From positions 1-33,731 of IMG/VR virus record IMGVR_UViG_3300033571_008538: DNA of 33,731 nt; one strand, written 5' to 3'. This DNA comes from a virus. The translations under genes and the position numbers were made by a program. The notes under the pieces are model-generated. The model was not told the DNA's origin. It did no database searches and saw nothing but the letters and a program-made list of their open reading frames with translations. This document shows positions 1,795 to 33,574 of the stretch, piece after piece; positions within the stretch are counted from its first letter, which is position 1; every line of letters starts with the position of its first letter.

Positions 1795-1979
1795 GATTGC
1801 ACCCCGCTTTTCTTTAGGAGACTTTCTAAAATCTCCTCTATGCGGTCTAGGCGGTTGCGGAGATCACGATGCTTAGTCTGTAGATCAATCAGAGCAGTTG
1901 TCTGCGAGAGCTGGGCCGATCCATAGGATTGTGCTGCACTGATGGGCAATACGCCTTCTTGTTCTAGGTCGCGTATCAT
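1791..1979 (-). CDS. Small coiled-coil protein (62 aa)
   Basis: ATG at 1979 overlaps the stop of the upstream membrane protein gene (ATGA type). The C-terminal half is a heptad-like helix (TKHRDLRNRLDRIEEILESL) predicted to form a coiled coil. No catalytic motif is visible. It overlaps the nuclease start by four bases, so the three genes here are probably translated in sequence. Function unknown. Confidence 0.55.
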   Translation of the reverse strand: MIRDLEQEGVLPISAAQSYGSAQLSQTTALIDLQTKHRDLRNRLDRIEEILESLLKKSGVQS

Positions 1980-2134
1980 AGATCCCTAAAAGTTCTGCGG
2001 ATCTGATCGATGACCCACCCAAACACGAGTACGGCTACTGTTAGCCCGGCGATTCCAGAGCCAACAAATAAGGCCCAGCCAGTAATCAGCATAGATACCT
2101 GGGCAAGATCCCGCATAAGTTCCCACGAAATCAT
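1976..2134 (-). CDS. Small membrane protein (52 aa)
   Basis: The start is taken at ATG 2134, which overlaps the stop of the preceding gene (ATGA); a longer frame upstream would run through that gene. The product has a short amphipathic N-terminus and one long hydrophobic segment (LITGWALFVGSGIAGLTVAV...), followed by a basic end (IDQIRRTFRDL), giving a single-pass, N-out or tail-anchored topology. An early phage membrane protein could act in exclusion or replication anchoring. Neither can be shown. Confidence 0.6.
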   Translation of the reverse strand: MISWELMRDLAQVSMLITGWALFVGSGIAGLTVAVLVFGWVIDQIRRTFRDL

Positions 2135-2346
2135 TTGCTGGCCTCGTGCTGGGCGTGCCACATACGGCACACGGCGGGGTTTGGGTGATATACGAACGCT
2201 TCGGGGGTCAAATCGTACCCGCCGCGCGAATTTAAATTTAGTTGTTGGTAGTGAGCCTTTTTAGGCTCAGTTATTACTGCCGTGTTACTGTTTCGGCGTA
2301 AGTCGTTATAGTGACAAGCATCGGACGGGGTGGGATTTGAACCCAC
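2131..2346 (-). CDS. First early gene, start codon inside the tRNA-derived att core (71 aa)
   Basis: The frame is open from 2388, but the best start is GTG at 2344-2346. It lies eight bases after a strong AAGGAG at about 2355-2360, while the upstream ATG at 2388 has no ribosome site. The first residues (VGSNPTP) are simply the translated tRNA T-arm. The C-terminal half (LTPEAFVYHPNPAVCRMWHA) looks like ordinary protein, and the stop overlaps the next gene (ATGA). The ribosome site lies on the integrase side of the core, so integration would separate it from the start codon. The protein function is unknown. Confidence 0.5.
   Translation of the reverse strand: MGSNPTPSDACHYNDLRRNSNTAVITEPKKAHYQQLNLNSRGGYDLTPEAFVYHPNPAVCRMWHAQHEASK
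2252..2269. repeat. Short inverted repeat downstream of the att core
   Basis: TGAGCC and GGCTCA flank a six-base A/T loop. No T-run follows on either strand, so it is not a standard intrinsic terminator. It lies inside the coding region of the first early gene. It may be a protein site or an RNA hairpin in a transcript coming from the tRNA side after integration. Confidence 0.4.
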
Positions 2347-2350
2347 GGTT
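2322..2350 (-). other. attP: attP core: 3' end of a tRNA gene (T-arm plus acceptor strand)
   Basis: Read on the minus strand, the segment contains a five-base stem GTGGG, the seven-base loop TTCAAAT, the complementary CCCAC and a seven-base acceptor strand CCCGTCC with discriminator G. No anticodon or D arm precedes it: the upstream bases are A-rich and carry a ribosome site. It is therefore a 3' tRNA fragment, as carried by phages that integrate into tRNA genes and restore the gene on integration. The T-arm and acceptor resemble a tRNA-Ser type, but the identity is not certain. The integrase starts 90 bases away. Phage genes lie on both sides, which points to attP rather than attL or attR. 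Confidence 0.75.
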
Positions 2351-2407
2351 CTATCTCCTTCTTTGTTTTGATTAATTATGCTTTGCATGGTTGCTGTGTG
2401 TTATTGC

Positions 2408-2436
2408 TTTAAACTGAGCAAATGTTACCCTTGTAA
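2408..2436 (-). promoter_or_regulatory. Predicted early promoter on the integrase side of attP
   Basis: On the minus strand TTACAA and TTTAAA are separated by 17 bases, which matches a sigma70-type promoter. The predicted start is near 2401, about 50 bases before the att core. It would drive the early operon from 2346 leftwards. An inverted repeat (2424-2437) covers the -35 hexamer. The call is by consensus only. Confidence 0.45.
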
Positions 2437-2437
2437 C
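2424..2437. promoter_or_regulatory. Operator-like inverted repeat GTTAC-N4-GTAAC
   Basis: A perfect five-base inverted repeat overlaps the -35 of the predicted early promoter and ends one base before the integrase GTG start. Bound protein here could block early transcription and also affect integrase initiation. It could instead be an integrase arm site. The sequence differs from the TACGC sites of the ribbon-helix-helix switch. Confidence 0.4.
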
Positions 2438-2438
2438 T

Positions 2439-3536
2439 GTGGCATACTCTTACGTTAAAAAGGGAAATCCGTGGTTCTACATTCGTTTTAAAGATCCCAC
2501 CGGCAAATGGCGCACTAAAAGCACCCGCTACCGAATCGACAATACGCTGCATCGCGCAAAGGCAACGGCCGAGGCCGCTCGACTTGGCGTTAATGAAAAG
2601 CGAAAAGATTGTGGCAGCGATTGGGTTGACGATTTGATCGAAAATCATCCCGTTTCCCCTCTGACAAAAGTGTATTACAGGAATTGCTGGCGTCATCTTG
2701 CTCGTTTTATTAGTGAGAAAAAAATAACTCTGCAAGCGTTTTCTGCAAATGATTGTGAAATTTATTTGCGATGGCGCCAAAGCCTTCCCCGCACCTCTGG
2801 CGGAAAGGCGGGCAGGAACCAAGCCTGCCAAGATTTGAAGATTCTTAAATGGATTCATCGCCAAGGCCGACTGCTTGGAAAGATGGATTCTGTCGCTCTT
2901 CTGGATTACCGAATTAAGAGGGGGCCGATCTCCCGCGTTAAACCTGTCTTTTCGGACAATGAAATTAAAATCATCCGGAAAGCCTTGGCCGTCGACGGTG
3001 TTCCCGAATGGATGCGAGTCAGCTTTGAGATTGCTCTGGCTACGGGCTGCAGATTGCGCGAGACGCAGATTCCCCTGGATTGCGTGGATCTGAAAAACCG
3101 CGTGCTGACTTTCCCGACCCCTAAGGGTGGAGCTGGCAAATCGTTCTCTATCCCCATCCCGGCCGCAATCGAACCAATGCTCGCCAAGATGAAGGCCGAT
3201 GGCCGCGAGATCACTTGCGAAGTTCCCCGGACTCGAGCTTCGCTTTGCTGGCGTAGACTCTTGGATATATGCGGCCTTAAGCGTCATTGTTTTCATTCGC
3301 TTCGGGTAACCCGAGTGACTCGACTGCGGCTTTCAGGCTGTTCTCAATCTGTCGCCATGCGACTCGTGAATCACTCTTCGACTTTAGTGCATGAGCTTTA
3401 CCAGCGGCACTGCGTAGACGATCTCCGCGATGCAGTGAACTTAGGCCAGTCTGCATTAGCCTCCACCGATCAAAATCACTCGGAATTACCTTACCCGCGA
3501 TCTGCGGGAATCCCGGCAGTGCCTGCATTTGCTTAA
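2439..3536 (+). CDS. int: Tyrosine integrase
   Basis: 365 residues, phage integrase size, starting at GTG 2439. An N-terminal arm-binding-like region (FYIRFKDPTGKWR) is followed by a SAM-like core-binding domain (about 65-150) and the catalytic domain. Catalytic residues are visible: the first Arg in ATGCRLRETQ (about 205-207), HSLR (His286, Arg289), NHSS (His312) and the nucleophile Tyr321 in HELYQRH. It catalyses site-specific recombination between attP, 90 bases upstream, and a host tRNA gene. It is one of only two plus-strand genes. Its last 260 bases, which include His286 to Tyr321, overlap an opposite-strand gene in antisense. The C-terminal tail after about residue 330 is not conserved core and may exist only because the first stop is at 3536. 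Confidence 0.92.
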   Translation: MAYSYVKKGNPWFYIRFKDPTGKWRTKSTRYRIDNTLHRAKATAEAARLGVNEKRKDCGSDWVDDLIENHPVSPLTKVYYRNCWRHLARFISEKKITLQAFSANDCEIYLRWRQSLPRTSGGKAGRNQACQDLKILKWIHRQGRLLGKMDSVALLDYRIKRGPISRVKPVFSDNEIKIIRKALAVDGVPEWMRVSFEIALATGCRLRETQIPLDCVDLKNRVLTFPTPKGGAGKSFSIPIPAAIEPMLAKMKADGREITCEVPRTRASLCWRRLLDICGLKRHCFHSLRVTRVTRLRLSGCSQSVAMRLVNHSSTLVHELYQRHCVDDLRDAVNLGQSALASTDQNHSELPYPRSAGIPAVPAFA

Positions 3537-3642
3537 TCCGCACGTAGCCCAACCCGTAAGCGGCGCCTAGTTGGCGAAGGGAAAGAGCTCGATCCTGCTT
3601 GCGCAGATTCATGGCAGTATCGTTGAGACGCCCCGAGCTCAT
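3277..3642 (-). CDS. Winged-helix/excisionase-like DNA-binding protein, antisense to integrase
   Basis: The start is taken at ATG 3642, eight bases after the stop of the upstream ribbon-helix-helix gene; a TTG at 3678 would overlap that gene. Residues 20-61 form an HTH plus wing-like pattern (ALSLRQLGAAYGLGYVRIKQ, then GKVIPSDFDRWR), as in excisionase or AlpA-type regulators. The C-terminal half is basic. The stop at 3277 means the gene must overlap the last 260 bases of int on the other strand. Its position between int and an RHH regulator suits a recombination directionality factor, but this is inference. The C-terminal half could be non-conserved read-through. Confidence 0.6.
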   Translation of the reverse strand: MSSGRLNDTAMNLRKQDRALSLRQLGAAYGLGYVRIKQMQALPGFPQIAGKVIPSDFDRWRLMQTGLSSLHRGDRLRSAAGKAHALKSKSDSRVAWRQIENSLKAAVESLGLPEANENNDA

Positions 3643-3649
3643 GGCGTAT

Positions 3650-3811
3650 CTAGCTTTGCTCTCCCGATGCTTTGGCAAGCAGTTGAGTGATGAGCTGGGA
3701 AAGTGAAATACGACGGGCAGCGGCCAGTTTTTGTGATGCTTTTTTTACAGCAACGGGCAGAACAATGTTTGTCTTTTCAGACTTAAACCCGCTGAGTGGA
3801 CGACGAGGCAT
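3650..3811 (-). CDS. Ribbon-helix-helix (CopG/Arc-type) regulator, leftward
   Basis: 53 residues from ATG 3811, preceded by a good ribosome site (AGGAAAGG). The product has a basic N-terminus, a beta strand (KTNIVLPVAVKK) and helices (ASQKLAAARRISLSQLITQL), the ribbon-helix-helix layout in which the strand inserts in the DNA major groove as a dimer. It is transcribed away from the second RHH gene at 3917 and towards int. Its own start codon overlaps a TACGC half-site at 3811-3815, so autoregulation is likely. It is probably one side of the lysogeny switch, comparable in logic to the Arc/Mnt pair of P22, though direct homology is not claimed. Confidence 0.75.
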   Translation of the reverse strand: MPRRPLSGFKSEKTNIVLPVAVKKASQKLAAARRISLSQLITQLLAKASGEQS

Positions 3812-3839
3812 ACGCCTTTCCTACGCACACACGGCGTAT
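3810..3839. promoter_or_regulatory. Leftward operator: inverted repeat ATACGCC-N16-GGCGTAT
   Basis: Perfect seven-base arms flank a third TACGC at 3822-3826. The repeat covers the ribosome site and the start codon region of the leftward RHH gene. Its half-site TACGC recurs in the second operator at 3886-3904, which suggests one regulator reads both. Confidence 0.5.
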
Positions 3840-3881
3840 TAGCAACACTTTTCTTTTGGGCATTAACTTTTCTTTTTAAAC

Positions 3882-3909
3882 TTGAATGCGTATTTATTAC
3901 GCATACAAT
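3882..3909 (+). promoter_or_regulatory. Promoter with embedded operator for the rightward RHH gene
   Basis: TTGAAT and TACAAT are separated by 16 bases. The perfect inverted repeat ATGCGTA-TTTAT-TACGCAT (3886-3904) fills the spacer and touches both hexamers, a classic arrangement for repression by blocking polymerase. The expected transcription start is at or next to the ATG at 3917, and no purine-rich ribosome site lies before the ATG, so the mRNA should be leaderless. Confidence 0.6.
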
Positions 3910-3916
3910 CCTCCCC

Positions 3917-4060
3917 ATGAAAAAGGCAAAAACGAACCTTACAATCGACCCAAAAGTAAAACGCAACGGTGAGCGTCTTGCCAAAAAAAGCGGATTATCC
4001 CTTTCGGCATATATCACCACGCTGCTCGTCAAAGAGCTGGCTAAACAAAATAAACGCTAA
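3917..4060 (+). CDS. Ribbon-helix-helix regulator, rightward, leaderless
   Basis: 47 residues from ATG 3917. The pattern is basic N-terminus, strand TNLTIDPKVKR, then helices RLAKKSGLSLSAYITTLLVK, a CopG-like fold. The bases before the ATG are pyrimidine-rich (CCTCCCC) and offer no ribosome site, and the predicted -10 ends only seven bases earlier. The gene diverges from the other RHH gene. Its stop overlaps the stop of the convergent winged-helix gene at 4057, so rightward transcription would run into the end of the late operon. Which of the two RHH proteins is the repressor cannot be told from sequence. Confidence 0.72.
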   Translation: MKKAKTNLTIDPKVKRNGERLAKKSGLSLSAYITTLLVKELAKQNKR

Positions 4061-4356: not shown

Positions 4357-5084
4357 ACGCCTCCTATGGGTGAAAGCACGTTGACCGTGCATCCTTGGCC
4401 GCCTTCTACGTACTCGCCCCAGGCTACTCCGTGCTGCCATCTGGTAACGGATCGCTGGCGCCGGGCGTAGTGCATGCTGGGAATATCGGCTAGGCAACCG
4501 ATCGACCAACCCACGGGTGCGCCAATGCTGCGGCCAGCCGTGCGATCTATCCGATGCAAGTGCCCCATGACTACGGGTTTGCCAAGCATCTCAACGTGAT
4601 CTCTGACGGCGCTGGATTCTGAGAACATAAAGCCATGACCGAACGCCGTCCCTCCTAGAATGCGCCAACCTTTCTCTATATCGTAAGGCACAAACTGCGC
4701 CTTTAGATCCTTGCACATGTTATATATCTCCGACTTAGCCGACGTGCAGCAGTGCGCCACGATTGCGCTAGGCGAGTATTGTAAGGCCGTTAGGCGGTGC
4801 TCATGGTTTCCCTCAAAGATGTAGCGTGGCGCCAGTTCTCGAACGAAATTTAGGCCAGCATCAAAGTCCTCACGGATAGATGCAGTGCGTTCGGGCGAGT
4901 CTGGATCTTTCCTTGCGCTACCCATCAGCCCAGACAGATCTACAAAATCCCCTAAGTGCAGGGTCATATCTGGCTGCCACCTCCGCCTCATCTCTAGCGC
5001 GGCACGGCAAGCAGCTGCGTTTGCTAAGTGCCCGTGGCTACAACTAACGGCCAGCCAACGCTTCCACTTGCGGATAACTTTCAT
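4338..5084 (-). CDS. Calcineurin-like metallophosphoesterase
   Basis: 248 residues, a normal size for phage members. Ordered metal-site motifs are visible: GDFVD (about 45-49), GNHEHR (about 96-101), a GHG motif and GHLHRID near residue 175. The first motif, normally DxH, reads CSH (SCSHG near residue 14), so one metal-binding Asp is replaced by Cys. Family members hydrolyse phosphodiesters or phosphomonoesters with two metal ions. The substrate is unknown. Lambda carries an analogous phosphatase with unclear lytic role. It overlaps the MazG-like gene start (ATGA) and the winged-helix gene. Confidence 0.8.
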   Translation of the reverse strand: MKVIRKWKRWLAVSCSHGHLANAAACRAALEMRRRWQPDMTLHLGDFVDLSGLMGSARKDPDSPERTASIREDFDAGLNFVRELAPRYIFEGNHEHRLTALQYSPSAIVAHCCTSAKSEIYNMCKDLKAQFVPYDIEKGWRILGGTAFGHGFMFSESSAVRDHVEMLGKPVVMGHLHRIDRTAGRSIGAPVGWSIGCLADIPSMHYARRQRSVTRWQHGVAWGEYVEGGQGCTVNVLSPIGGVWRYPV

Positions 5085-17991: not shown

Positions 17992-18606
17992 TCACCAGAT
18001 CGGGCGAATGGACGGATCAAATGTGACCATGGTTTTACATCCAGCGCCACCATGCGGAAATGTTGGGGTGTAGTGGTATCGCTTGACGCAATCGGGCCAA
18101 GTTATCGTGGCCTTTCCCCTGGCTGCCTTCGGCGTATCCACGGATCGATCGTTATCCTCAATAATAAAGGTGCAGGGTAGATCTGCCCCAGCCACGTAGT
18201 TCACGGCCTCATAAAAATGGCCCTCGTCCTCAGCTCCATCGCCCAAGAAGCACCACACTTTTGCCGAGCTTCCTTGCTCTTTTAATGTGTGCGCAACTCC
18301 GGCCGCTATCCCGCAAGTGCCGGCCAAAACGCTTGAAGTGTAGAAATTCAGTTTACGGTCAAATACAAACATGGAACGACCTTCTTTAATCATCTGTTCG
18401 AGCACGTCAGGATTTCCGCCAGCCAGCAGATAGTGGTAGTGGGATCTGTGGCTTGAGAAAATCCAATCGCCTAGCTTGATGTCTTTGTATATCTCGATTA
18501 GCTGATCCTCATTCCCCCCGCATAGGTGAATCAGATATGGCAGCTTGCCCTGTTCAAATAGCGCCTTAATGCGCAGTTCAAAATTAATCAGATCCTGCTT
18601 GTTCAT
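17992..18606 (-). CDS. TPP-dependent enzyme, E1-alpha-like (PP) subunit
   Basis: 204 residues, shorter than usual E1 alpha. The thiamine diphosphate/Mg2+ motif is present: FLGDGAEDEG (GDG at 122-124), 27 residues, then EDND (Asn152), closed by RSVDTP. The N-terminal part SSHRSHYHYLLAGGNP and GRSMF resemble the E1 alpha substrate-side loop. It should pair with the E1-beta-like protein at 19691-20209 to form one active site. The radical SAM gene lies between the two halves. The start overlaps that gene by four bases. The reaction, acyl or glycolaldehyde transfer or decarboxylation, cannot be told from sequence. Confidence 0.75.
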   Translation of the reverse strand: MNKQDLINFELRIKALFEQGKLPYLIHLCGGNEDQLIEIYKDIKLGDWIFSSHRSHYHYLLAGGNPDVLEQMIKEGRSMFVFDRKLNFYTSSVLAGTCGIAAGVAHTLKEQGSSAKVWCFLGDGAEDEGHFYEAVNYVAGADLPCTFIIEDNDRSVDTPKAARGKATITWPDCVKRYHYTPTFPHGGAGCKTMVTFDPSIRPIW

Positions 18607-19697
18607 ACAAAGGCGTCGTGACTATCGGTGGCCAGCTTTTCAAACAGTGCCACCTTGGCGTGATTAGCGCATTCGTGCAGACAACTAACGCCTGGGTTAA
18701 AGTTCTTGTGCCATGCTTTCGCCTCTTCTCCGAACCATGCTTGGCTAAATGACTGATCCTTTATGGAAGCGATCCGGCCGTGATTGCTGTATGCGGTATT
18801 GTGGCATGCGTAGATATTAAGATCCGCGCCTACCACGCAAACGGCTTGAGCGTAAAGACAGCGATGGAACGGCCTGACGGGCGACTTACTTGGACTATCC
18901 AGATCGTAGGTCGTGTTAATGGTAAAATCTGAATCGCAAAAAGATTGGCACTCGGCCAGTTGCTCCCTCACCCTTGTCGCAATCGTGTTGTGATATTCTT
19001 TAAAGTTCTGCACGTATACGGGCGAAAAGCGGACATTACTTACGCCTGAATCCTTGAGTTGTTTAGCGAACGGAACTAATCCCTCGTAATTGTAGCGGGT
19101 AATAATAAAGTTAATACCAAGATCGCAGCTCTCTGTTTTTGTGTTGGAAAAGTTTTTTATATTCTGCATCACGGAATCAAACGATCTGTCAGGCACGTTA
19201 CGGCTAGACGCCATCTGCTCTGCGCTTGTGTAGTCCATGGAAATCCTGACCCATTTTGCCTTGCCCAATACTTCCGCCCTTTCCCCCGCAAGCAGTTGGC
19301 CGTTGGTAATAATGGATAGATCCAACCCAGACGAAACTGTCTTAGTCATAATCTCGACAATGTCTTTATGTAGCAAAGGCTCTCCGCCACCACTGAAGGT
19401 GACGGCTTTTGTTCCCATGCTTGAAAGATCCTCTATTAGTTCTAGCGCCTTATCTCGTGGCATCACGTCCCGCTCGTTCATGCTGGTGTGCATGCCAGCC
19501 TGTAGGTGCAAGTCAGGCCGATCCTTGGGCCGGGTTGTGCCGTCTGAATAGACGCAGAAACGGCAGGCGTGATTACAAATATTGGTCGGCTTAATCCGCA
19601 CGTAGATGGGTGCGGTAATAATATCGTCGCGAAAGCTGGCGATTTTGTCCGGGAACGAAAAGATCTTAAGGTCGCTGTACTTGTTCTGCTTCACCAC
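18603..19697 (-). CDS. Radical SAM protein with SPASM-like C-terminus
   Basis: 364 residues. The Fe4S4 motif CxxxCxxC is at Cys41, Cys45 and Cys48 (NICNHACRFCVYSDG), followed by VTFSGGGEPLLH, the SAM-binding GGE motif. The C-terminus has further cysteines (CLYAQAVC, IYACHNT, VSCLHECANH) in a SPASM/twitch-like pattern that holds an auxiliary cluster. Such enzymes start radical chemistry on sugars, peptides or cofactors. It sits between the two TPP enzyme halves and overlaps both neighbours (7 and 4 bases), so it should act in the same pathway. Phage radical SAM genes are known, but the substrate here is unknown. Confidence 0.85.
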   Translation of the reverse strand: MVKQNKYSDLKIFSFPDKIASFRDDIITAPIYVRIKPTNICNHACRFCVYSDGTTRPKDRPDLHLQAGMHTSMNERDVMPRDKALELIEDLSSMGTKAVTFSGGGEPLLHKDIVEIMTKTVSSGLDLSIITNGQLLAGERAEVLGKAKWVRISMDYTSAEQMASSRNVPDRSFDSVMQNIKNFSNTKTESCDLGINFIITRYNYEGLVPFAKQLKDSGVSNVRFSPVYVQNFKEYHNTIATRVREQLAECQSFCDSDFTINTTYDLDSPSKSPVRPFHRCLYAQAVCVVGADLNIYACHNTAYSNHGRIASIKDQSFSQAWFGEEAKAWHKNFNPGVSCLHECANHAKVALFEKLATDSHDAFV

Positions 19698-20209: not shown

Positions 20210-20970
20210 AGCAAACCTTCCTCTTCAAGAATATGCAGGGCGTGAAATGCGCTCCTAGCCATTTGACCGCGTTCGGTAAAAATAACTGTTTCTGTATCTG
20301 CACACAGCAAATGAAAGGCGTCTTTGTTGTGAACGTTTAGACACGGCCAGCTCGGCCCAGTGGATGTTCCGATTACGGCTTTTGCCTTGGCTGCAGTGGC
20401 TCCAATCCAAGTCACGTTCTTGTTATCAAATGCCGGGCATAATCCAGTATCGACTGTGCTGATTACCCGATGGCCCTTGCTAACTAGTTTAGATACTAGG
20501 TTGCGAAAGTCGTCGGGGTTAAAGTTTGTGAATTGACCAGACCGCCCTGGCGAATTTATCACGACGACGTCACAGTCTGGCGCCATCGGAATAAAAGAAT
20601 CTAGGGCTGGATAGTCAAACAGAAGATCGTCGACTTTCTGGATCGGATTCTTTACGCACATCCTGCTGGCCAGTTCCTCAAACCAACATAGATGAAATTT
20701 GGCGAAGTTTAATTTGTCGGGGTGACGCTCCCAATATCCGCCTGCATTACGCCAAGAATCAATACTATCGGCTGGCGCTTCGCTAATTGGTCGAATGCGT
20801 AGCCGTAAGGACATGTCGCTACGCAAGGCATCAATCTCCTCAAACTTGCACAGCTCCGGATTGTGATAGTGCGTGATCTCAATATCTGGATTTTGCAGGC
20901 ATAGCCTACGCAGAAAGTTTAACTGCACCAGGTTGTCTCCCAAACGCAGTGCGTTGTGGGTGTGAATCAC
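20206..20970 (-). CDS. GT-B/GT9-like glycosyltransferase
   Basis: 254 residues. RLGDNLVQLNFLRRL at the N-terminus and VIGTSTGPSWPCLN near residue 205 resemble the acceptor loop and nucleotide-sugar loop of heptosyltransferase-type GT-B enzymes. The middle includes VVVINSPGRSG, the usual start of the second Rossmann domain. It is short for the family, so it may be a minimal or divergent member. Its place next to a GT-A enzyme and TPP/radical SAM proteins supports a carbohydrate role. Start and stop overlap neighbours by four bases. Confidence 0.6.
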   Translation of the reverse strand: MIHTHNALRLGDNLVQLNFLRRLCLQNPDIEITHYHNPELCKFEEIDALRSDMSLRLRIRPISEAPADSIDSWRNAGGYWERHPDKLNFAKFHLCWFEELASRMCVKNPIQKVDDLLFDYPALDSFIPMAPDCDVVVINSPGRSGQFTNFNPDDFRNLVSKLVSKGHRVISTVDTGLCPAFDNKNVTWIGATAAKAKAVIGTSTGPSWPCLNVHNKDAFHLLCADTETVIFTERGQMARSAFHALHILEEEGLL

Positions 20971-22652
20971 GGGTTCCTCTCCTTAAATATCTTTTCGCCC
21001 AGCTCGTAGTTCTCCTTGGCGTTGTGGCGTTTAAATTCCGCGTCCTGCGTTGCGCCCGTAAAGAGCGGATTATTGTGGGTAAAGACGATATCCTTGGCGG
21101 AAATGATGACGCCATCTTTTGCCCCGCGTAAGCTGAACTCGTTATCGCTGAAAATGCCTGAGCATGCGTCGTACTCTGGGGCAAAAAGTGTGCCCTGCTG
21201 TTTGAGCCTAGCTTTTGTTAAAATTGCAATGCAAAGCAGATCGTCTTTGCGGTGGCCGTCAGATACAGCAAGGATTGATGGCTTACTTGAATCGCCAAGC
21301 CGTTGCGTGATGATCGTATCCCAATGCAGTGGAGGATCCCAATCGTCGGAGCCTTGAATGATGATCTCCCCACGGGCCACTTCTGCCGCTCTGTTCCATG
21401 CGGCAATGCACCCGCCCTTCCCCTTGACAATTCCCCAATTTTTTAGCATGTCGGCTTTTGGATCGTCATCGTCGACTGAGTAGATCCACTCAACTGACGC
21501 TGGATCTGCCGCCTTTTTCATCCACAAGATGCGGGCATTGATGGCTTCTTGGGGGCGGCCTCGCGTGGCGTGGCAGACGGTAATCTTCACGGGCTTCTGC
21601 GCCCGCCACATGTTCTCAATCTTTTCTGCCTCGGCCGTATCGCCCACGGCTTTACAGGCCGCAAGGTACAGATCGATGCACTCAAAGTCATAGACGGTGC
21701 GCTGGGCGTTCCAGATCTTCACGCCCGGATCGGGCTGAACCATCGCCGATTTTAGCAAGTGATAAGCCTGTAACCACGCACCCACGCTGGCCTCTTCCCT
21801 GGCTAGATAGTAAATCGCCTCCCTTCGCCCAGGGTTCATCTGATGTGCCTTTTGGTATAAGCCGATCCTGACCGTGCGATCTTGCGTGGCTGTAGCCTGA
21901 TTGCAGGCGGCCTCGTAAGCCAGCGTTGCCTCTTGCCCTGGCCAGACGGCCGCAACGTGTGACCACGGCTCAGATTCCGTCCTCCGATTCCCTAAGAAAA
22001 GTTCCTGCTGATAGTAGTACGCATACTTGCCTGCTTCGCTTAATTGGCCCTGCAAGATGCGTAGATTCCGATCGGCGCTACCCGCCTTGTAACCACCGGG
22101 GTGATGCTCCACCCATACTGCCTGCTCACCTACAGATTCTAGCCCAGCATTAGGCAACAGCGCCTCATGCACTGCATAGTTCCACCTGCCAGACCATACG
22201 CCGTCTATACGCCGCACCATGCGCTCACGTACTGGCCTTAATTTGGCGTTTATAACGTCATAGACGCCTGCATAGATTCCGAGCTTAGGATTGTGCTCAA
22301 ATGCTTCTACGCCCCTTTTAAGAGCGTTTTTGAGGTCTTTATGTGGCAAGTCATCGCAATCCACCCATACTGCATAGTCGCCAGTGCAGGCATCCAGTGC
22401 CGTGTTGCGGGCGGCGGCAAAGTTGTCGACGTGAGGCCAGCTTGCCCCTGCGGATGCGTTTTTATATTCAACTATCTTAGCCCCTGACTTCTCGGCAATC
22501 GCCCGCGTGCCGTCGTCAGGCCGAGCGCCTTGGGCTATGCAGACCACTAGCTCATCGCAGAATGGTTTAAAGGCAGTAAGGCAGCGGTCGATAAATTGGG
22601 CTTCGTGCCCAGCGATCATGTAGATGGAGATTTTAGGATTTCGAGTGGCCAC
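20967..22652 (-). CDS. Two-domain glycosyltransferase (GT2-type GT-A domains)
   Basis: 561 residues. The first GT-A domain has ISIYMIAGHEAQFIDRCL, then AARNTALDACTGDYAVWVDCDD with the metal-binding D-x-DD near 98-101, as in GT2 (WaaE/SunS-like) enzymes. A helical, TPR-like middle (about 240-350) follows. A second GT-A-like domain starts near 355 (KITVCHATRGRP), with SVDDDDPKAD and IIIQGSDDWDPP. It may act on two linkages or bind acceptor with one domain. The gene begins two bases after the connector gene stop, so it is translated with the late operon. Virion or host-surface glycosylation is the likely role. Confidence 0.75.
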   Translation of the reverse strand: MATRNPKISIYMIAGHEAQFIDRCLTAFKPFCDELVVCIAQGARPDDGTRAIAEKSGAKIVEYKNASAGASWPHVDNFAAARNTALDACTGDYAVWVDCDDLPHKDLKNALKRGVEAFEHNPKLGIYAGVYDVINAKLRPVRERMVRRIDGVWSGRWNYAVHEALLPNAGLESVGEQAVWVEHHPGGYKAGSADRNLRILQGQLSEAGKYAYYYQQELFLGNRRTESEPWSHVAAVWPGQEATLAYEAACNQATATQDRTVRIGLYQKAHQMNPGRREAIYYLAREEASVGAWLQAYHLLKSAMVQPDPGVKIWNAQRTVYDFECIDLYLAACKAVGDTAEAEKIENMWRAQKPVKITVCHATRGRPQEAINARILWMKKAADPASVEWIYSVDDDDPKADMLKNWGIVKGKGGCIAAWNRAAEVARGEIIIQGSDDWDPPLHWDTIITQRLGDSSKPSILAVSDGHRKDDLLCIAILTKARLKQQGTLFAPEYDACSGIFSDNEFSLRGAKDGVIISAKDIVFTHNNPLFTGATQDAEFKRHNAKENYELGEKIFKERNP

Positions 22653-33200: not shown

Positions 33201-33574
33201 TAGGGATAAATATCCACAGGCCGCTTTGTTTCGTTTTCGCAAAACTTTTTTATTTTAAGAAACTGTTGATACGTATCACGAAAAAGAAATCCTTTTGAGA
33301 TTAAAAACACAAAGAGCTGGTAAATGTTACCTAACTCGTTTTTCTTCCAGCCTGCATAACAACATCCGGATGAATGAATGTCGTATATTTTCCTTTTGCC
33401 AAGCACATAAGAAAACAAATTGCTAGATGGTTTATCAACCCATACTTTCCTTGCCTCATAAGACCACTCAATATTGTAATTTATTAGCCTTATGTTCGGA
33501 TGTTCTGTTTTCCATTTCATACATATTTTCTCCTTATTTTCTTTCAGTTGATCATGGTTATTTTCGTATTTCAT
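33200..33574 (-). CDS. AT-rich hypothetical protein (124 aa)
   Basis: 124 residues from ATG 33574, preceded by AAAGGAGT. A second start at Met19 has its own AAGGAG. The protein is rich in Lys, Asn, Ile, Tyr and Phe, with IYDIHSSGCCYAG and LFVFLISKGFLFRDTY. Its codons are AT-rich, unlike neighbouring genes. This points to recent acquisition, a moron-type gene. No family is recognised, and a role in exclusion or defence is only a guess. Confidence 0.55.
   Translation of the reverse strand: MKYENNHDQLKENKEKICMKWKTEHPNIRLINYNIEWSYEARKVWVDKPSSNLFSYVLGKRKIYDIHSSGCCYAGWKKNELGNIYQLFVFLISKGFLFRDTYQQFLKIKKFCENETKRPVDIYP

Follow-up and report, generated by a model that had tools for sequence, protein, structure and literature searches.

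Does integration of this phage part its lytic genes from the sequences that start their expression, and where does the attachment site (attP) lie relative to the first of these genes? A sequence-only reading of the locus had placed attP in the leader of an early operon, between a promoter and the first gene. We examined this arrangement in the window, the whole stretch of DNA analyzed, which is a virus record of 33,731 bp. Its plus strand carries a gene for a tyrosine integrase of 365 aa (Int; positions 2439 to 3536) that matches PF00589 and phrog_1. The catalytic R-H-R-H-Y set is present, with R205, H286, R289, H312, and Y321 invariant in 10 diverse relatives. The int gene is divergent from gene 1 (2131 to 2388, minus strand; ATG at 2388-2386), which encodes 85 aa, and the two start codons enclose a control region of 50 bp (2389 to 2438). 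The ATG of gene 2 (1976 to 2135, minus strand), encoding a small predicted membrane protein, overlaps the gene 1 stop. The recognizable lytic genes (primase-helicase, terminase, portal, capsid, tape measure, and endolysin) are on the minus strand, like gene 1, and the integrase gene is on the plus strand. Since gene 1 heads this minus-strand set, "early operon" is a fair name for the gene 1 end of it. Beyond int, two small divergent genes (3650-3811, minus strand, and 3917-4060, plus strand) give weak RHH_5/Arc-like repressor matches (the ribbon-helix-helix, or RHH, pair).

We found that the att common core (2322 to 2349, minus strand) is the 3' end of a host tRNA-Ser(CGA), present exactly in host tRNA genes. 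Phage and host are identical over 28 bp (2349-2322), with zero to two extra chance bases on the right side and, in one genome, one extra base on the left. The core consists of 3 nt, the T arm, the acceptor strand, and G73, and it is translated within gene 1 from codon 14; the host gene that carries it was identified as tRNA-Ser(CGA) by ARAGORN. The core is real, and the att identity proposed by the sequence-only reading is upheld, as are the integrase adjoining it and, on its other side, the first gene of a long minus-strand set. Its tRNA origin likewise stands, with the bounds shifted slightly, from 2322-2350 to the 2349-2322 covered by the host match.

A 25-nt part of the core (2346-2322, minus strand; GTGGGTTCAAATCCCACCCCGTCCG) also occurs in genomes of one Verrucomicrobiota order, the order of the MAG Verrucomicrobia bacterium UBA3063, in which a relative of this phage (L078) sits. 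Nearly all occurrences of the Ser core fall in a subset of small genomes (G423 to G442), with a single one outside the subset (G399), and it is because of this near restriction to one clade that the exact core was found in 0 of the 388 genomes of a phylum-wide Verrucomicrobiota sample. Relatives of the phage carry other cores at the same place. In five close relatives (L031, L038, L042, L045, and L069), the core is GGGGGTTCAAATCCCTCCACTGCCA, the exact end of a tRNA-Met(CAT), and in L048 and the distant L083 it is GTGGGTTCAAATCCCACCGCTCCGA, the exact end of a tRNA-Pro(TGG); the matching tRNA-Met(CAT) and tRNA-Pro(TGG) genes are both found in the G423-G442 subset and in G001. A fourth core type, tRNA-like, is present in L084. 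Among the relatives compared, no integrase residue that tracks the core type was fixed. The phages probably infect Verrucomicrobiota, and the tRNA core matches together with L078 point to the small-genome clade as the likely host.

The core is flanked by short repeats on both sides. The P arm (2423 to 2437, minus strand) contains GTTACA (2437-2432) and GTAACA (2428-2423), 9 bp apart, between the start codons of int and gene 1, and the P' arm (2272 to 2288, minus strand) contains GTAACA (2288-2283) and GTAATA (2277-2272), 11 bp apart, inside the gene 1 coding sequence. Diverse relatives have the P-arm repeats at -90 and -81 from the core, with at least one exact repeat in each, and the P'-arm repeats are found in relatives at +32/33 and +43/44. 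Close relatives show paired repeats at the same places, one member often being degenerate. The background frequency of GTARCA is ∼0.5 to 0.9 per kb. From their position and repetition, we take the GTARCA-type repeats as putative Int arm sites. So delimited, attP comprises the P arm, the tRNA core, and the P' arm, measures ∼165 bp, and encodes about the first 39 residues of gene 1.

The first early gene had been read as starting at a GTG within the core (2346-2344), behind the ribosome site AAGGAG (2360-2355). Gene 1 has an ATG at 2388, 14 codons upstream of this GTG, from which the frame continues across the core as far as 2131. Counting the window, each of the 72 close loci has an in-frame start ahead of the core codon (67 ATG and 5 GTG), at a distance of either 16 codons (ATG in 48 loci, GTG in 5) or 14 codons (ATG in 19). 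The core codon is GGG, not GTG, in 5 of the 72, and an SD-like motif precedes it in 41. These counts argue against the GTG as the start; the AAGGAG is indeed there in the window, and conservation does not support it as a ribosome site. Since gene 1 would start at ATG 2388, upstream of the core, the att core is inside the 5' coding part of gene 1 by the evidence of the aligned loci, and the placement of attP in a leader has to be abandoned.

Reading frame conservation is consistent with this start. Over the 13 codons before the core, 46 distinct sequences contain 0 stops, versus 59 and 55 in the other frames, counts that come from related sequences and do not represent a probability. Amino acid constraint on these N-terminal codons is weak (pN/pS, 0.77), and that on the gene 1 body is strong (pN/pS, 0.20). 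The conserved body begins at codon 39 (2131 to 2274, minus strand), and the gene 1 stop and the gene 2 start overlap in an ATGA in 57 and in a GTGA in 11 of 71 loci. Distant relatives (53 to 56% Int identity) use the remaining two frames across the core, with a start located 13 to 17 codons before it, and the shuffle probability of such an open frame through the core is 2 to 6% per distant locus. Frame or core differs among some four lineages; if these are independent, chance is an unlikely explanation. Gene 1 itself has no Pfam or PHROG match, and single-sequence fold prediction gave no confident structure (mean pLDDT, 38.5). Upstream of int in L079 and L080/L081, this attP-encoded N-terminal stretch is followed by different gene bodies, a pattern suggestive of a lysogeny module that travels whole, reading frame included.

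The minus-strand promoter proposed for gene 1 (TTACAA-17-TTTAAA, 2436-2408) did not survive closer inspection. It matches the consensus at 8 of 12 positions, with a -10 element that lacks A2 and T6; with shuffled upstream sequence, roughly one trial in three gives a score of at least 8, even when A2 and T6 are required. Its TTACAA overlaps an Int-type P-arm repeat, and conservation does not support it. A weak but better-placed candidate, GTAACA-17-AATAAC (2428-2400), also scores 8/12 in the window, and a version of it with GTAACA, 17 to 18 nt, and AATAAT reaches 9/12 in some relatives, a score of 9 or more being obtained in ∼11% of shuffles. No sigma-70 promoter match on the int side rose above shuffles in the window. 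Another 9/12 match (2404-2375) is so placed that transcription from it would begin immediately ahead of the core GTG. An int-side promoter of gene 1 would lie in 2389 to 2438 or within int. On the other side of the core, no minus-strand promoter match reached the threshold from 2322 down to 1, a stretch that includes the interval (2131-2322) named for checking in the sequence-only reading. Two minus-strand matches lie further on, at 33279 and 28825, where matches are fewer than in shuffles of that region.

A junction of the window with host tRNA-Ser, made at the core, gives a predicted attR with an in-frame TGA 10 codons before the core, inside the tRNA, and with no start codon between this TGA and the core. 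The one start left would be the core GTG, which has no evident ribosome site in the tRNA sequence preceding it. In 48 of the 72 loci, the gene 1 body offers no in-frame start from which more than 20 aa could be made; in the other 24, only TTG is present. The predicted int end (attL) encodes a truncated gene 1 product of 28 residues in 7 of 8 genomes. The proposal that integration would part the int side from the lytic head and that excision would rejoin them is supported in outline, since the geometry follows from the attB/attP identity and the tRNA orientation. The predicted promoter and ribosome site have no support from conservation, and the lytic head would lose the start codon and ∼14 codons besides any promoter on the int side.

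We looked for integrated copies and found no attL or attR of this phage type in related viral loci, which are mostly fragments, or in the sampled Verrucomicrobiota genomes. An integrase profile search of a partial sample (388 genomes of the phylum, 62 of the order, and 384 of the class) returned, at the similarity of the window Int, the UBA3063 contig alone, and this contig is of the attP type. None of these collections yielded a prophage copy, and we infer both that integration occurs in nature and that it silences the lytic set. L247 seemed to start with a tRNA-Ser, a reading that we dismissed, as the search for a tRNA there was negative and the sequence reads as that of a phage. Too few contigs had an end close to the core for this to be taken as a sign of mixed att states.

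Natural relatives without the integrase retain the gene 1 body. Three of them (L138, L142, and L178) have neither attP nor most of int nor the RHH block. In L138 and L142 (class B), the equivalents of window positions 2274-2621 and 2795-4055 are missing, and a 173-bp antisense remnant of int forms a new N-terminus, joined at gene 1 codon 39, a junction that falls inside the distal P' repeat and is shared by L178. By eye, the class B N-terminus had resembled that of gene 1, a resemblance that we rejected, as it is actually antisense int sequence. L138 and L142 are identical over the int remnant (4801-5000 in both) and 87% identical overall, which suggests that the cassette with the deletion of int and attP has spread recently or was exchanged. 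In L249, L253, and L254, an unrelated N-terminus lies behind a TTGACG-17-TATTAG sequence. In the sequences compared, the gene 1 body is thus kept, open from another start, where attP is absent (classes B and C). A tyrosine integrase (PF00589) was found in 0 of five longer int-less records (25 to 34 kb), two control records being positive. The RHH genes, part of a module missing from int-less relatives, are deleted in class B and did not turn up next to gene 1 in class C; their products are candidate repressors.

We propose that, in the circular phage, gene 1 would be read from its int-side start, through the core, and into the conserved body, to a stop overlapping gene 2. Int would carry out recombination between the core and the host tRNA 3' end. 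After integration, attL, at the int end, would keep the start codon, the first 13 to 14 codons, and the int-side control region, and attR would have the gene body and the lytic genes behind the tRNA, devoid of that start codon. Because the gene 1 body would have no start codon at attR, expression from the lytic head would need the circular (excised) genome. In addition, since the arm repeats cover the int-side control region, Int bound at attP may compete with gene 1 transcription. This explanation as a whole, with attP embedded in the start of the lytic set and gene 1 split by integration and restored by excision, is the one that we favor and regard as reasonably probable from sequence comparison. 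Several points speak against it: no attL or attR turned up in the loci and genomes searched, consensus matching does not single out a gene 1 promoter, the RHH pair, which belongs to this module, may act as conventional repressors, the core GTG might work as a weak start in the prophage, and read-through from the tRNA promoter into the lytic genes may occur. A bolder version, in which the state of the genome is the lytic switch, integration alone silencing, excision alone starting lysis, and Int binding at attP competing with transcription, we put forward as tentative and rather doubtful.

The split might also be real and incidental, lysogeny being kept by the RHH proteins or another repressor and the attP-encoded N-terminus being a neutral passenger. 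Such a situation, which we consider unlikely, agrees with the presence of RHH/Arc-like genes in the same module, lost with int in class B and not seen beside gene 1 in class C, and with the weak constraint on the N-terminal codons; however, a frame open across the core is maintained whichever of several tRNAs the core comes from and in all three frames, which a pure passenger would not need. Far less probable is a gene 1 that begins at the core GTG 2346 behind AAGGAG and a minus-strand promoter. The AAGGAG ∼8 nt before the GTG in the window and the 9/12 match at 2404-2375 would suit it, but the GGG core codons, the SD-like motif limited to 41 loci, and the upstream frame kept open do not, and the distant relatives read the core in frames in which the GTG is out of frame.

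Lastly, the prophage lytic genes, co-oriented behind tRNA-Ser, could be expressed at a low level by read-through from the tRNA. The co-orientation follows from the att geometry, and no terminator-like site was found on the minus strand just after the core. Such promoter capture would nevertheless make replication and structural genes constitutive and would deliver a gene 1 without a start at attR, and a tRNA-Ser read-through transcript would be cut by tRNA 3' processing; we rate it the least probable of these alternatives.

The split-gene arrangement that we favor has counterparts in known systems. In mycobacteriophages of the BPs type, the repressor gene contains attP and loses its 3' end, a degradation tag, upon integration, so that in BPs and its relatives the active form of the repressor is made in the prophage (PMC4557955, PMC9934374); different relatives of BPs read the common core in different frames (PMC9934374). 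As in these phages, the attP core here lies inside a phage coding sequence, with the integrase adjoining, is read in different frames among phages, and would alter the product of the interrupted gene upon integration. In contrast, the gene interrupted in BPs is a repressor, whereas gene 1 heads the lytic set; it would lose its start codon and 5' end upon integration and so be off in the prophage, instead of losing a 3' degradation tag to give a stable product. Circularization-dependent transcription has been described for Tn916 (Celli and Trieu-Cuot 1998, via PMC6540685), and circularization joins a promoter to genes in ICEHptfs4 (PMC6586827). The phage would resemble them in having the promoter at one end of the element and the genes at the other, joined only in the circle. 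Those, however, are conjugative elements with a transcript or promoter crossing the junction, whereas here, in a phage, the start codon and N-terminus would cross as well. The tRNA 3'-end core, the adjoining int, the paired arm repeats, and the tRNA that integration would reconstitute are those of ordinary temperate phages that target tRNA genes with tyrosine integrases. In such phages, attP usually lies outside the lytic coding sequence, unlike here, where it is within it. The arrangement merges the BPs and Tn916 ideas with the opposite sign, as here the first lytic gene holds attP in its 5' part. Keyword searches confined to the open literature did not return the same arrangement. If the explanation holds, lysogeny in this group need not depend wholly on a repressor, and the locus would mirror the integration-dependent immunity of mycobacteriophages and offer a simple case in which to test views of the evolution of genetic switches. 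The analysis also points to a probable host clade of this uncultured phage group, gives its attB sites exactly, and supplies natural relatives that lack int.

Amid the structural genes, the window encodes a radical SAM protein and a two-part glycosyltransferase (18603-19697 and 20967-22652), which are possible auxiliary or modification genes. In the probable host clade, other elements seem to occupy the same tRNA-Ser(CGA) end on four contigs (G423:C87, G440:C2, G442:C44, and G434:C192), where CGTGACA repeats lie just behind the tRNA gene. As candidates for this phage they were rejected, since none has the window int; G423:C87 has another integrase-like ORF behind the tRNA-Ser. In one Verrucomicrobiota genome (G423:C40), the remnant of a tRNA-Gly 3' end adjoins a related integrase (38.5%). 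The segment 116177-147268 of this contig was considered as a prophage and reassigned as an island, as no window structural gene matched and its long ORFs look metabolic by eye. Four copies of the tRNA-Gly 3'-end core, the last in a seemingly intact tRNA, are found over 110067-162955 of the same contig (L168, L169, L173, and L174) and look like islands stacked at one tRNA gene.
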